Assembly (NCBI RefSeq): GCF_007671725.1
Contig: NZ_VCNM01000002.1
Span: 1,302,001 to 1,366,000, forward strand
From: Halorubrum depositum
GTDB taxonomy: Archaea; Halobacteriota; Halobacteria; Halobacteriales; Haloferacaceae
Length of the DNA stretch: 64,000 nucleotides
Reading direction: 5' to 3'
The notes beneath the pieces were generated by a model, which saw only the letters and a list, made by a program, of their open reading frames with translations, was not told the origin of the DNA and did not search any database. The number at the start of each line of letters is the position of its first letter. Position 1 is the stretch's first letter. A program made the translations under genes and the position numbers. Positions 9,909 to 40,835 of this stretch are shown piece after piece.

Positions 9909-12146
9909 CTACCGATCGTCGGCGGTGTACTCCCGGTCGTAGCCGAACGGGAGGTACGTCTCCCCGCCGCCCTCGTAGAACTTCCCGAAGAACTCGACGT
10001 ACTCGAGACGCACGGCCTGGATGCCGGCCGACGTGACGCCGAGCAGGAGGACCACGACGTGGCCGACGAACGCCACCGCGATGCCGGCGAGGAGCGCGAT
10101 GACGCCGACGAGGCCGGGCTCGAACGCCGTCGTCAGCCCGGCGAAGACGAGCTCGTACTCGCCGCCGTTCGCGACGGAGTGCTCCTGAACGTACGAGAGG
10201 TACTCCGGCGTGAAGATGAAGTGGAAGCTCCCGTCGCCGCCGCCGTCGATGTACGCGCCGAACGCGAGCAGGTTCACCGCGAGCGCCATCCCGCCCTTCG
10301 CGAGCAGCACCGCCATGATCCGGGCGTACGAGATGACGTTGACGATCGGCGAGAGCACCTCGGCGAGCTCCGGCGGCTCGCCGATCGCGAGCAGCACCAC
10401 GCCGAGTCCGGCGGCGACGACCCCGCCGATCCCGACCGCGACCGGGAAGCCGGCGAACGACACCGCCCCGAAGGTGAGAATCGAGAACGACTCGAAGAGG
10501 AAGTCGGGCTTCGGACCCGGCAGGTGCTGGCTGAAGATCCAGATCCACGCGCCGTTGAGCAGCAGCAGCCACGACCCGCCCTCGTACAGCGCGTGTTTGA
10601 GGTCGTGCTGCTGGTAGTTGCTCACGAACGAGAGGGCGTGACCCACGTTCAGGTGAACGATCCCGAACAGCACGCTCACGATGAGGAACGACAGCGCCCA
10701 GTCGAGGTCGGCCGGCGAGAGCCCCTTCCCGGCGACCGGCCAGTGGACGTCACCGGGCAGCAGCTGGTAGGCGTGGTAGCCGAACACGTCGATCCCGAAG
10801 TAGATCCCGAACAGGATCGTGAAGCCGCCGGCCCACATCGCGACGGCGCCGAGCTCGCGGAAGGTGCCGTCGTATCGGCTGTACATGAAGTAGCCGATCG
10901 CGGCGTAGAGGACGCCGTAGCCGACGTCGCCGATCATGAACCCGAACATGAGCGGGAACGTGAGGAACACGAGGAGCGTCGGGTCGAACTCCGAGTACTT
11001 CGGCCGGCCGAACCCCTGCACGAGCAGCTCGAACGGGCCCGCCGCGCTCCCGTTGTCCTGGACGACCGGCGGCTCGTCGTCGCCGTGCATCGCGTGGCCG
11101 CCGTCGGTGGCGGCCGCCTTCTCGGTTGTCGCGTCCGCCGCGTCGTCGGTCGCGCTCGCGGAGCCGCCCCCGTCGCCGCCCACCGCCTCGGTGTGGTGGT
11201 CGCCGTCGGGCGTGAACGAGGCGCGCTCGAGCTCCTCGACCTCGACGTGGTCGCCGACGGCGTCGGCGATGGCCGCCTCGAAGTCGGGGTAGGCGTCCGT
11301 GGGGATCCACCCCTCGGCGACGAACGCGTTCTCCGTGGTCGCGAACGAGAGCGGCGCCTCCTTCTTCTCGGCCTCGATGGTGAGCTGCTCCTCGGCGCGA
11401 AGCAGGAAGCCGGCCGCCTCCTCCTTCACGTCGGCGAGGTCGGCCTCGACCGACTCGAGGTCGGCCCGCAGCTCCTCGCGCTCGCGCTCCAGCTCCGCGA
11501 CGTAGTCGGCGGGGCTGGCGTCGGCCTCGGGGACCTCCAGCAGCGCGATGTCGACGCCGACGAGCGAGTCCTGCAGGACCCCCGCCTCGGCCCCCTCGGC
11601 GGGCTTCGCGAAGATCGCCACGACGTCGCTCCCGGCGAACACCTCGTAGGCGTCGATCCCGTCGGCGTCGGCGAGCGTCGCCTCGACCGCGTCGGGCTTG
11701 GCCTCGCCGACGACGACCTCCAGCGAGTCGTAGCCGCGGAGCAGGTCGAGCTCGATGCCGAGGTCCGCGAACGGCTCCATCCGATCGATCTCCTCCTCGC
11801 GGTCGCGGATCTCGGCCTGGAGCTCGTCCCGCCGGTCGTTGAGCGCGTTGACGCGCTCTCGGACGTCTTCGAGCTCGCGTTCGAGCTCCTCGTCGTCGAG
11901 CGCGCGGACCGCGTCGGCCTCGTCGCCCTCGACGTCGAGCACGCTCTCCAGCGAGCGGACGGTGACGAGCCGCTCGTTCACCGTCTCGGCGCCTTCGAGC
12001 GACTCGCCGGGCTCGAACCCCTCGTAGCGCTCGTCGTAGTCCGTGACGTGCAGCGAGTGGTGCGCGTACGCCGCCTCGATGACGTCGTCGATGACGCGCT
12101 TCGAGCCCGTCACCGACACCTTGCTCATCCGCTCAGGCCTGAGCAT
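9909..12146 (-). CDS. atpI: A-type ATP synthase subunit I (membrane stator, a-subunit homologue)
   Basis: Stator subunit that forms the ion half-channels and anchors the peripheral stalks. It has 745 residues. The soluble N-terminal half (1 to about 375) contains long coiled-coil stretches. A haloarchaeal low-complexity insert rich in Ala, Asp, Gly and His lies at about 310-370, followed by about eight membrane spans. The start MLRPERMSKVSVTG is favoured because this opening is typical, but it overlaps atpH by 14 bases. The internal ATG at 12126-12128 (MSKVSV) is the alternative. The conserved ion-path Arg was not pinpointed. Confidence 0.93.
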   Translation of the reverse strand: MLRPERMSKVSVTGSKRVIDDVIEAAYAHHSLHVTDYDERYEGFEPGESLEGAETVNERLVTVRSLESVLDVEGDEADAVRALDDEELERELEDVRERVNALNDRRDELQAEIRDREEEIDRMEPFADLGIELDLLRGYDSLEVVVGEAKPDAVEATLADADGIDAYEVFAGSDVVAIFAKPAEGAEAGVLQDSLVGVDIALLEVPEADASPADYVAELEREREELRADLESVEADLADVKEEAAGFLLRAEEQLTIEAEKKEAPLSFATTENAFVAEGWIPTDAYPDFEAAIADAVGDHVEVEELERASFTPDGDHHTEAVGGDGGGSASATDDAADATTEKAAATDGGHAMHGDDEPPVVQDNGSAAGPFELLVQGFGRPKYSEFDPTLLVFLTFPLMFGFMIGDVGYGVLYAAIGYFMYSRYDGTFRELGAVAMWAGGFTILFGIYFGIDVFGYHAYQLLPGDVHWPVAGKGLSPADLDWALSFLIVSVLFGIVHLNVGHALSFVSNYQQHDLKHALYEGGSWLLLLNGAWIWIFSQHLPGPKPDFLFESFSILTFGAVSFAGFPVAVGIGGVVAAGLGVVLLAIGEPPELAEVLSPIVNVISYARIMAVLLAKGGMALAVNLLAFGAYIDGGGDGSFHFIFTPEYLSYVQEHSVANGGEYELVFAGLTTAFEPGLVGVIALLAGIAVAFVGHVVVLLLGVTSAGIQAVRLEYVEFFGKFYEGGGETYLPFGYDREYTADDR

Positions 12147-12489
12147 CCACCGCCTCCTCGGCCTGTTGGTTCACCGCTTCCTCGAACCGTTCGACTGCGT
12201 AGTCGACGGCCGAATCCACGCGCTCGCGGGCCTCGCGTTCGAGCTCGTCGCGGTCGGACCGACCCGACTCGAGGATCTCCTCGCGGCGTTCCTCGATCTC
12301 CTCGCGGGCCGCTTCGAGCCGCGCTTCGGCCTCGGACTCCGCCTCCTCCGCGGCCTCCTCGCGGATCGCCTCCGCGCGCTCCCGAGCCTCGGCGAGGCGC
12401 TCGTCGGCGTCCGATTCCGCCTCCGCGATGATCTCGTCCGCCTCCCGTTCAGCCTCCTTGATCCGGTCGAGCACCTCTGGTCTGGCCAT
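12133..12489 (-). CDS. atpH: A-type ATP synthase subunit H (peripheral stalk coiled coil)
   Basis: First gene of the operon. The 118 residues read MARPEVLDRIKEAEREADE, then an almost unbroken charged helix of Ala, Glu and Arg heptads. This is the peripheral-stalk partner of subunit E. Archaeal H subunits are about 100-110 residues, so the size fits. It is the promoter-proximal cistron; see the TATA-like box at 12521-12529. Confidence 0.88.
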   Translation of the reverse strand: MARPEVLDRIKEAEREADEIIAEAESDADERLAEARERAEAIREEAAEEAESEAEARLEAAREEIEERREEILESGRSDRDELEREARERVDSAVDYAVERFEEAVNQQAEEAVDAQA

Positions 12490-12676: not shown

Positions 12677-14209
12677 ATGGCAACGGTGTATGCGGTCGCG
12701 TCGGCGAAAGGTGGGGTCGGGAAGACCACCACGACCGCGGCGATGGCGACGATCCTGGCGGGCTCAGGCGCCGACGTCGTCGCGATCGACGCCGACATCG
12801 GTATGGCGAACCTCGCGGGCGCGCTGGGCGTGACGCCCGGCGAGACGACGCTCCACGACGTGCTCGCGGGGCGAGCCGACCCGCTCGACGCGGTCCACGA
12901 GGGGCCCGAGGGGCTCCGCGTCGTCCCCGGTTCGGACGACCTCGACGCGTACGCGTCGGCGGACCCGGCCGGACTCGGCGACGTGGTCGACGCCTTCGAG
13001 GGCGCCGACTACGTCCTCGTCGACGCCGGCGCGGGGCTCTCGCACGACTCCAGCCTCCCGCTCGCGATCGCCGACGAGACGCTGCTCGTCTCGACCGCCG
13101 AGCGGAGCGCCCTCGGCGACACCGAGAAGACCCGACAGCTCGCCGAGCGGCTCGGCGGCGAAGTCGCCGGCGCCGCGATCACCCGCGTCGACCCCGACGC
13201 CGACCCCGACGAGGTCGGCGCCGACGGGCTCGGCGACGTCGGAGGCGTGCTCGACGCGCCGGTCCTCGGCCGGATCCCGGAGGACGACGCGGTGGTGCGG
13301 GCGGCGACCGCGAACAGCCCGCTCCCGACGTTCGCGCCGGACGCGCCCGCCACCCGTGCCTACCGGGACCTCACGCGGGCCCTGACGGGCGCGACCGTCG
13401 AGGGCGCCGGGGTCGGCGAGTCCGGCGGGACCGACGAGGCCGGCGAGGCCGACGAAGACGAGGAAGCGGACGACTCCGCGGAGACCGATGACACCGACGA
13501 GGAGGACGACGCCCACGAGGCGGAAGACGCCGAGGCGACCGCCGAGTCCGAAGACGGGCCGGCGGACGACGCCGGAGACCCCGTTGACGCCGACGAGGAC
13601 ATCATCGTCGCCGACGCCGAGTCGGGCGGGCTGAGCGATCCGGGCGACGAGGAGGAGATCATCGTCGCCGACGAGGGCCCCGTCCCGGAGGAGGGCGACG
13701 CGGACGCGGGGGCGACCGGCGAGACGGAGACCGTCGGCGAGGAGCGCGTCGACGGCGACGACCTCGAGGCGATGATCGAGGAGGACGCGGACGAGGCCGA
13801 GGCGTTCGACGACGAGTCCGCGGCGGACGACTCCGGCCTCGACGACGAGTCCACGGCTGACGACGTCGAAGAGGCGACGCCGGAGGACACCGAAGAAGCG
13901 ACCGCAGACGACGAGGAAGCGACCGACGGTACGGAGGTTGACGAGGCAGAGGCCGACGAGGTCTCGGAGGTTGACGAGGCAGAGACCGACGAGGCGGAAG
14001 AGGCCGATCCGGACGACGAGCTCGCGGGGAGCGTCCCGTTCCGCGACGACGACACCGGCGGTATGAACACCGTGCTCTCCGAGGGCGACGGAGACGCGGA
14101 GGAGACGGAGGACGCGGAGAGCGAGACGGCGGACGACGGCGAGAAGGACGACGATGAGAGGGACGACGGCAGCGGCGGCGGCTTCTTCAGTCGGCTGTTC
14201 GGGCGGTAG
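12677..14209 (+). CDS. minD4: MinD/ParA-type ATPase with long acidic tail and terminal amphipathic peptide (MinD4-like)
   Basis: Cell-positioning ATPase of 510 residues. The MinD domain (1 to about 240) has the deviant Walker A motif KGGVGKTT at 11-18, DADIGMANLAGALG after it, and a Walker B-like segment LVDAGAG. Residues 245-498 are extremely rich in Asp, Glu, Ala and Thr and must be disordered. Two copies of an IIVAD motif interrupt them (306-313 and 324-333), as does SVPFRDDDTGGMNTVLSEG (452-470). The protein ends GGGFFSRLFGR, much like the amphipathic membrane-targeting peptide of bacterial MinD. From memory, Haloferax MinD4, which positions archaella and chemosensory arrays, has such a tail and lies near the atp operon. 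The symbol rests on that and was not searched. Confidence 0.8.
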   Translation: MATVYAVASAKGGVGKTTTTAAMATILAGSGADVVAIDADIGMANLAGALGVTPGETTLHDVLAGRADPLDAVHEGPEGLRVVPGSDDLDAYASADPAGLGDVVDAFEGADYVLVDAGAGLSHDSSLPLAIADETLLVSTAERSALGDTEKTRQLAERLGGEVAGAAITRVDPDADPDEVGADGLGDVGGVLDAPVLGRIPEDDAVVRAATANSPLPTFAPDAPATRAYRDLTRALTGATVEGAGVGESGGTDEAGEADEDEEADDSAETDDTDEEDDAHEAEDAEATAESEDGPADDAGDPVDADEDIIVADAESGGLSDPGDEEEIIVADEGPVPEEGDADAGATGETETVGEERVDGDDLEAMIEEDADEAEAFDDESAADDSGLDDESTADDVEEATPEDTEEATADDEEATDGTEVDEAEADEVSEVDEAETDEAEEADPDDELAGSVPFRDDDTGGMNTVLSEGDGDAEETEDAESETADDGEKDDDERDDGSGGGFFSRLFGR

Positions 14210-39755: not shown

Positions 39756-40835
39756 TCAGAGCAGGTCGTCGAGCTCGTCGTTGTCGAACGCGGACGCGGG
39801 GTCGACCCGCTCTTCCGGCTCGTCGCGGACCGCCTGCCGGGCGCGTTCGAGGAACTCCTCCACCCGGCGGGAGCGCTCGACGCCGCCGAGCAGCACGAGC
39901 GCCGCGATCCGGTCGGAGTCGAGCGGGAAATCACCGCCGCGCACCTGCATCGATCCCGTCTCCTCCTGGAGCCACTTTCGCGCCTTCTCCGCGCCCTTCC
40001 GGGAGATGCGGTCGGGGTCGCCCGCGACGGCGACGAGGGCGGCGTCGGCCTCGGTCGCGCTCGGGAGCGACATCCCCGTCATCACCGCGCTTCGGACCGT
40101 ACTCATCACGGTCGTGACGTTCTCCTCGGCGTCCTCGGCGGCCGGGGCCGAGGCGAACCCGACGGCCGCCATCCCGCCGGCCCGCAGCGTGTTGATCACC
40201 TCGCTCGTGTCGACGACCGACTCGGCGACGCCCTCGACCGACTCGCCGGCGGCCAGGAGGAGCCCGACGCGCCGCGCCATCGACTCGTTGATCGCGGCGA
40301 AGCCGCCCTCCACCGACTCCCCCGAGGCGCGCCACGCGTCGTTGTCGAGCAGTATCGTCGCGTCCGCCTCCCGCACCAGCGTCTTCAGCGACCGCCCCGC
40401 GTTCACCTGGTACATCGCCCCCTCGTCGCGGCCGGGGAGGATGCCGATCGCGTACACCGGGACGTCGTACACCCGGCTCAGCTCGCGGACGAGGACGGGC
40501 GCGCCGCCCGAGCCGGTGCCGCCGCCGAGCCCGGCGACCACGAACAGCGCCTCGGCCTCCGCGGTCACCTTCGACGCGAGCGCGTCCAGCACCTCGACGG
40601 CGTCTTCGTCCATCACCTCGGCGCCCAGCTCGTTGTCGCCGCCGACGCCGTGTCCGTTCACCCTGGACTGCCCGACGAGGACCGTGTCGAGCGGGAGCGG
40701 GTCGAGGTCCCCCGCGGCCGTGTTGACCGCGAGCGCGTCCAGCACCGCGCCGTAGCCGGCGTCGGCGTCGAACTGCGCGAGAGCGGTCGCGAGCTTCCCG
40801 CCCGCCTGTCCGACGCCGAGGAGGACTGTCTTCAT
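39756..40835 (-). CDS. cetZ: CetZ-type tubulin/FtsZ superfamily GTPase
   Basis: Cytoskeletal GTPase that in haloarchaea controls cell shape. The 359 residues start [19 protein letters not shown], with the nucleotide-binding G1 segment. The tubulin signature GGGTGSGG is at 104-111, and [20 protein letters not shown] follows as the linker region. The C-terminal domain contains the T7-loop area. The tail ([19 protein letters not shown]) is a short acidic peptide. The protein lacks the FtsZ-specific C terminus and fits the CetZ group; I cannot tell which paralogue. GTATTACGC (40859-40867) serves as its TATA-like box in a 75-base divergent promoter region. Confidence 0.9.

Follow-up and report, generated by a model that had tools for sequence, protein, structure and literature searches.

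According to the available excerpts of a published account, the haloarchaeal protein MinD4 oscillates and forms polar caps in Haloferax volcanii, with the caps requiring both the Walker A and the Walker B motif while the oscillation is independent of both (PMC11621097, citing Nussbaum 2020). The same excerpts state that motility suffers when minD4 is deleted, when its Walker motifs are mutated or when the long C-terminal tail is truncated, and that another oscillator may interact with MinD4 (PMC11621097, citing Nussbaum 2020); what drives the ATPase-independent oscillation and how archaella and chemosensory arrays are placed by MinD4 are named there as open questions (PMC11621097). Excerpts of a second report describe MinD2 and MinD4 as acting jointly on ArlD and CheW foci (PMC11588486). 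In bacteria, residues 256–270 of Escherichia coli MinD were described as a C-terminal amphipathic membrane-targeting helix that acts weakly in one copy but effectively once the ATP dimer has formed, while the membrane-targeting sequence (MTS) of FlhG occupies a groove on the FlhG monomer itself (PMC6803595, excerpts).

The window, by which we mean the whole 64,000-nucleotide stretch of Halorubrum depositum DNA analysed here, lies on contig C2 of a 3.18 Mb genome and carries the gene of a MinD4-type ATPase of 510 aa (12677..14209, + strand). Like MinD4 of Haloferax volcanii (HVO_0322), the encoded protein is a MinD ATPase prolonged at its C-terminus by a tail, and both belong to one family-level set. 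With E. coli MinD it shares the MinD fold, the signature lysine and a C-terminal amphipathic helix, which in the window protein is a predicted one. The helix of E. coli MinD closely follows the ATPase domain, as far as the excerpts of the bacterial work describe it, whereas about 260 disordered residues separate the two in the window protein, whose genome furthermore has no match to the MinE profile PF03776 (control genomes matched in 3 of 14 cases). If the tip is the anchor it resembles, this candidate MinD-type anchor at the far end of a disordered acidic tether represents a geometry unlike that of bacterial MinD.

The ATPase domain comprises residues 1–240 (12677..13396, + strand) and features the deviant Walker A motif KGGVGKT with K11 and K16. 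It matches PF01656 with 67.9 bits against a cut-off of 25.4, while the NCBIfam profile minD_arch (TIGR01969) is matched with 194.4 bits (E 1.8e-57), slightly below its cut-off of 201.75. K11, K16, D38, D40 and D116 are invariant across 55 proteins, as is the K11–T17 stretch that forms the deviant Walker A motif KGGxGKT with its signature lysine. The AlphaFold2 model, for which 55 of the 129 distinct MinD4 proteins were aligned, gives residues 1–240 a MinD fold with pLDDT values mostly above 90. A Foldseek search with this model returned the MinD proteins of Pyrococcus and Archaeoglobus (1ion, 1g3q, 1hyq) as top matches with target TM scores of 0.88–0.92 and placed E. coli MinD (3q9l, target TM 0.79) as well as FlhG and FleN (4rz3, 5j1j) at lower ranks. 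The nearest solved relatives of the domain are archaeal MinD structures. FlhG and FleN are, like MinD4, MinD relatives that position flagella, and FlhG is described, in the excerpts available, to end in a membrane-targeting sequence. Neither FlhG nor FleN is known to possess a long acidic tail with docking peptides, and their partners FlhF and FleQ are not expected in archaea.

Homologues were collected from 119 genomes of the window's own family (labelled f1), 106 of which contained an ATPase-domain match at E 5.2e-53 or better, a cut chosen by us, and were taken to encode MinD4. After leaving aside L101 and L014 (contig ends), L165 (frame disturbed at an N run) and the duplicates L009, L010 and L012, the final set comprised 129 distinct MinD4 proteins from 26 genera, including those from extra Halorubrum genomes and named records. 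Within Halorubrum (genus label g1, so assigned because g1 genomes encode proteins identical to those of named Halorubrum records), MinD4 was found in 51 of 52 genomes, from which 36 distinct proteins were read. In a quick tree of 153 domains, the MinD4 proteins of the family are set apart from the clade holding most MinD paralogues, with weak deep branches and long branches disturbing the root. As the long-tailed MinD proteins of family f17 fall nearer to the paralogues and the short-tailed ones of f7 group with f6, claims on evolutionary depth are limited to family f1, and counts of the [VI]PF motif in families f6, f16 and f17 were taken as an aside only.

Genus g28 was assigned to Haloferax because its CetZ1 is 96–99 % identical to the chain of PDB entry 4b46, which we take to be CetZ1 of H. 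volcanii. Equivalence of the window protein to the studied HVO_0322 is therefore judged through genus-level homologues and would hold to the extent that these represent it. All ten Haloferax homologues end in a tip of the form GFFxRFLG and carry [VI]PF, PLVAEAE and VYTT(S/T)L in their tails. They differ from the window protein in lacking the IIVAD pair (0 of 10, with a single DIIVA in 2 of 10) and in their length of 591–735 aa compared to 510.

The genomic context differs as well. In the window, minD4 borders the A-type ATP synthase operon on one side and diverges from it, facing a small ORF (12133–12489, − strand), which we took to be atpH despite the absence of a Pfam match, and the V_ATPase_I gene (9909–12146); an HTH gene and tiaS follow downstream. 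Many Haloferax genes are instead found close to where the operon carries subunit D, and in most other genera the best match lies near this other end (subunit D gene, ATP-synt_D) or near the genes of CTP-dependent riboflavin kinase and DHBP synthase, which are located at 28–30 kb in the window. HVO_0322 itself presumably has a neighbourhood of the ATP synthase subunit D/riboflavin kinase type. Halorubrum, g12 and g14 have minD4 at the atpH end, but many other genera have it next to subunit D, a relocation in which the link to the ATP synthase operon was retained. A CetZ-family tubulin-like gene of 359 aa (39756–40835, − strand; CetZ_C 213 bits, Tubulin 99 bits) was also noticed about 26 kb from minD4, being one of five Tubulin-family matches in this genome.

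MinD4 and archaellin genes tend to occur together: among the 119 genomes, 95 have both, 11 only MinD4, 4 only archaellin and 9 neither. The corresponding Fisher p value of 8.5e-6 overstates the case, as the counts are not independent, the losses coming mainly from g3, g4 and g6, and as several genomes are incomplete. The table was compiled by hand, with G050 (below the cut-off) counted without archaellin and the unlisted G012 and G020 taken as lacking it. The window's genome encodes both archaellin and CheW.

The tail spans residues 241–510 (13397..14206, + strand). Its 270 residues include 61 Asp and 60 Glu, so 121 acidic residues or 45 % of the total, next to 6 Lys/Arg and 32 large hydrophobics, in good agreement with the acidic tail of about 250 residues that the preliminary description had claimed. 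Nearly all Ile, Leu, Phe and Met residues of the tail are confined to a few islands. In the AlphaFold2 model, pLDDT values of about 42–58 prevail over most of its length and helix 504–507 is the sole secondary structure, by which the tail is predicted to be disordered. Across the family, tail lengths range from 17 to 495 residues and neither sequence nor length of the linkers is constrained. Column identities were evaluated in an alignment of 24 of the 36 distinct Halorubrum proteins, in which the linkers reach a mean of 0.34 compared to 0.83 for the ATPase domain. On the codon level, the synonymous share among changed codons is only 0.10 in the linkers and 0.50 in the ATPase domain. The tip, the IIVA cores and the PF island described below have synonymous shares far above that of the linkers, which argues that they are kept as protein. 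The view of a tail that is not featureless but holds hydrophobic islands amid Asp and Glu is thereby borne out at the level of protein selection.

The most widespread of these islands is the C-terminal tip GGFFSRLFGR (residues 501–510, 14177..14206, + strand), a candidate membrane-targeting sequence. The preliminary description had reported a terminal amphipathic peptide, and a strict pattern for it was found in 128 of the 129 distinct MinD4 proteins from 26 genera of the family; the single exception, L142, ends with SFFGRLFRSS and represents a plain variant. The strict pattern matched none of 609 control-gene C-termini, and by eye the tip was absent from 24 other MinD-family C-termini (20 from fetched paralogue loci, 4 encoded in the genome of the window itself), which rules out a general haloarchaeal MinD trait. 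Its mean column identity in Halorubrum is 0.94 with a synonymous share of 0.80. The hydrophobic moment of the window tip is 0.63 and the median of all tips 0.61, compared to a control median of 0.38, with 59 of the 609 controls reaching the tip median. Helix 504–507 in the tip is the only one predicted in the tail, at a low confidence of pLDDT ~58. The likeness to the end of E. coli MinD claimed in the preliminary description is a putative one, the excerpts of PMC6803595 supporting only that E. coli MinD residues 256–270 are an amphipathic membrane-targeting helix. Judged from these sequences, the tip is the one constant part of MinD4 tails in the family and very probably serves as a membrane anchor.

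The PF island DELAGSVPFRDDDTGGMNTVLSE (residues 447–469, 14015..14083, + strand) carries the motifs [VI]PF and TxL and has a column identity of 0.91 in the 24 Halorubrum proteins, with a synonymous share of 0.66. It includes the segment GSVPFRDDDTGGMNTVLSE (residues 451–469, SVPFRDDD...MNTVLSE), which is present in the tail as claimed earlier. None of the 36 Halorubrum proteins lacks [VI]PF, and the motif also occurs in 45 of the 93 remaining family proteins, where it is distributed over 11 of 25 other genera and missing from 14. An aromatic-TxL motif was found outside Halorubrum in 38 of 93 proteins from 8 genera.

The IIVAD doublet module DEDIIVADAESGGLSDPGDEEEIIVADEG covers residues 306–334 (13592..13678, + strand), position 13592, from which the preliminary description started, being the codon of D306, the first residue of the first motif. 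The first core DIIVAD (residues 308–313, 13598..13615, + strand) lies within DEDIIVAD (306–313) and the second core EIIVAD (residues 327–332, 13655..13672, + strand) within EEEIIVAD (325–332). Both near-identical motifs are thus present as announced, while their distance from start to start is 19 residues and not 18. Three of the 36 distinct Halorubrum proteins lack the complete pair, two having one IIVAD-type copy and one having none, and the module reaches an identity of 0.73 compared to 0.34 for the linkers. The spacing is 19 residues in all 33 proteins with both copies. This fixed pitch, maintained while the linkers slide, suggests that the doublet forms a single composite site and not a pair of independent copies. 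The synonymous share is 0.68 in the IIVA cores and 0.18 in the variable spacer between them. On the DNA level, a count over both strands of the genome gave three occurrences of the pattern for (D/E)(D/E)(F/L/I/M/V)IVA(D/E), two of them being the IIVAD pair; the third looks to be in a non-coding frame (long open frame, judged by eye). A second island, ETETVGEERVDGDDLEAMIE (residues 349–368, 13721..13780, + strand), is found in some of the Halorubrum MinD4 tails with the consensus ETETVGExHVDGDDLEAMIE and an identity of 0.64 in the 24 aligned proteins.

Outside Halorubrum, a DIIVA-like motif was detected in only 12 of 93 proteins from 4 of 25 genera (g6, g8, g25 and g28), which rules out IIVAD as a family-wide MinD4 signature; across the proteins compared, the exact pair is essentially a Halorubrum form. 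The alignment of homologous tails, suggested earlier as a check on the conservation of the motifs, gives a divided answer, as the tip and [VI]PF are found deep in the family, whereas IIVAD is mainly restricted to Halorubrum. Absence of conservation of IIVAD or of the tip among the homologues, which would have spoken against the original proposal, did not occur.

To what extent such motifs recur by composition was assessed by shuffling within blocks of 40 residues in the 24 non-Halorubrum genera of the family with tails longer than 100 residues. In genus-equivalents, observed and shuffled values were 11.0 and 0.17 for [VI]PF, and 1.97 and 0.09 for [DE][IVL][IV]VA, the observed values being attained in none of 500 shuffles in either case and likewise in none of 500 for aromatic-TxL. 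As the patterns beyond those of the preliminary description were picked after viewing the tails, their shuffle tests were not blind, and an unbiased search of tails from 26 genera for three-residue patterns is the safer evidence. It ranked IPF first, with Y.T.L, I..AE and IIV also in the top list; AYR and its kin in the same list belong to the end of the ATPase domain and not to the tail. In 3,330 residues of control-gene acidic segments, [VI]PF, DIIVA and aromatic-TxL were not found once, although the MinD4 rate predicts about 8 of each. The looser pattern hxxAE is only 2.6 times commoner in MinD4 tails and was given no weight alone. The control genes are heuristic gene calls rather than annotation, and the shuffle and control-gene counts used 132 rows, including the three duplicates L009, L010 and L012. 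The tip and the tail peptides are under selection and not products of chance.

Taken together, it appears fairly probable that a MinD-type amphipathic helix, carried at the far end of a disordered linker with docking peptides, tethers the ATPase domain to the membrane. The MinD-fold domain of residues 1–240 should dimerise on ATP, the long acidic disordered tail would serve as a tether with the Halorubrum IIVAD doublet, [VI]PF and TxL as docking peptides, and the terminal amphipathic helix would represent the MinD-type membrane-targeting sequence. ATP dimerisation would then pair two tips, providing a hold on the membrane from which a polar cap may form, while the tether peptides would recruit a partner, either the placement machinery for motility and chemotaxis or an oscillator that moves MinD4 without the use of its own ATPase. 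The present analysis shows the fold and the disorder, both by prediction, and the selection on tip and peptides; oscillation, ATPase-dependent caps and the requirement for the tail come from the Haloferax work. That the tip binds the membrane, that the peptides dock and what they would dock to is what we infer. That the tail peptides dock something is likely; that the docked component is a separate oscillator or a polar motility factor is a more tentative proposal. The Haloferax results on tail truncation and on ATPase-independent oscillation, the latter implying a partner, fit this reading as given in the excerpts available.

A more specific version, in which we place little confidence, describes MinD4 as the passenger of a separate archaeal oscillator. 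[VI]PF and lineage-specific peptides would dock this oscillator or a polar motility scaffold, and the tip together with the ATP dimer would form the membrane cap. The lineage-specific part might be played by the IIVAD doublet in Halorubrum, bivalent with its 19-residue pitch, and by PLVAEAE and VYTTSL in Haloferax. If true, ATP-independent oscillation and ATP-dependent capping would be separated onto distinct tail peptides.

The alternative that survives best, though unlikely, is that only the tip matters and that the tail is a passive halophilic tether for solubility and spacing, with islands that have no partner and are either remnants or weakly structural. It draws on the free sequence and length of the linkers in tails of 17–495 residues, on the predicted disorder with no island docked, and on genus g24, whose 11 proteins retain the tip (e.g. 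GFLRWLLR) on tails of only 17–105 residues and in no case contain [VI]PF, DIIVA or aromatic-TxL. Archaellin genes are nevertheless present in 10 of the 11 genomes concerned, by which these peptides cannot explain the working of MinD4 in all lineages and are, as far as these sequences tell, dispensable in some lineage. A merely passive tail is, however, difficult to reconcile with synonymous shares of 68 % in the IIVA cores and 66 % in the PF island compared to 10 % in the linkers, with a spacing fixed in 33 of 33 proteins, and with the recurrence of [VI]PF among genera whose tails are otherwise unalignable.

Auto-inhibition, with the islands binding the protein's own ATPase domain instead of a partner, appears improbable. 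A precedent exists in the MTS of FlhG (PMC6803595, excerpts), and strand-like hydrophobic peptides on a nucleotide switch protein would suit such a role. The AlphaFold2 model based on 55 homologues shows no docking of the islands onto the ATPase domain and leaves them at low pLDDT, which speaks weakly against self-binding, since monomer models often miss weak contacts. A role of the acid-flanked IIVAD peptides as SUMO-interaction-like motifs reading the archaeal ubiquitin-like SAMP proteins is very improbable: an acidic flank with an Ile/Val run does resemble the SUMO-interaction consensus, but SAMPs are regarded as general in haloarchaea, whereas IIVAD is limited mainly to one genus. A compositional artefact of acidic low-complexity sequence, conceivable in haloarchaeal tails rich in Asp, Glu, Ala and Val and drawing on few codons, is scarcely credible and was ruled out for [VI]PF, DIIVA and aromatic-TxL by the block-shuffles and the motif-free control segments.

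With tethering and partner docking as the preferred reading, the earlier observation is confirmed and its interpretation partly supported. IIVAD, which had been given most weight, is under selection in Halorubrum, but the tip and [VI]PF reach much further, and the emphasis should move to these two in what is a variant of a known protein. The map of selected tail residues turns the need for a tail into a handful of small deletions and peptides for pull-down experiments. No published account of MinD4 tail motifs was found among titles and abstract openings, a search to which Nussbaum 2020 was external, and novelty in print is left unclaimed.

Tails outside this set of proteins show further variants. 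In family f7, the nearest MinD homologues combine a short tail lacking any hydrophobic tip with a conserved end of the VSSAIT(E/D)AE type that resembles the hxxAE of f1 tails (L201, L205, L207, L209, L213–L215, L218, L220, L221, L223, L226, L227, L244, L254, L257 and L263). The long-tailed MinD proteins of family f17 (L211, L224, L228–L230, L233 and others) bear GVLGR(L/I)GS(L/I)FK-type tips and contain [VI]PF in 16 of 17 cases; it is possible that the tail designs of f17 and f1 are convergent or shared, though the tree sets f17 nearer to other paralogues. Repeat-bearing tails were also observed, with ESEELELGEESD-like units in genus g15 (L116, L121) and PPEIDLSLPDPDE-like units in family f16 (L239).
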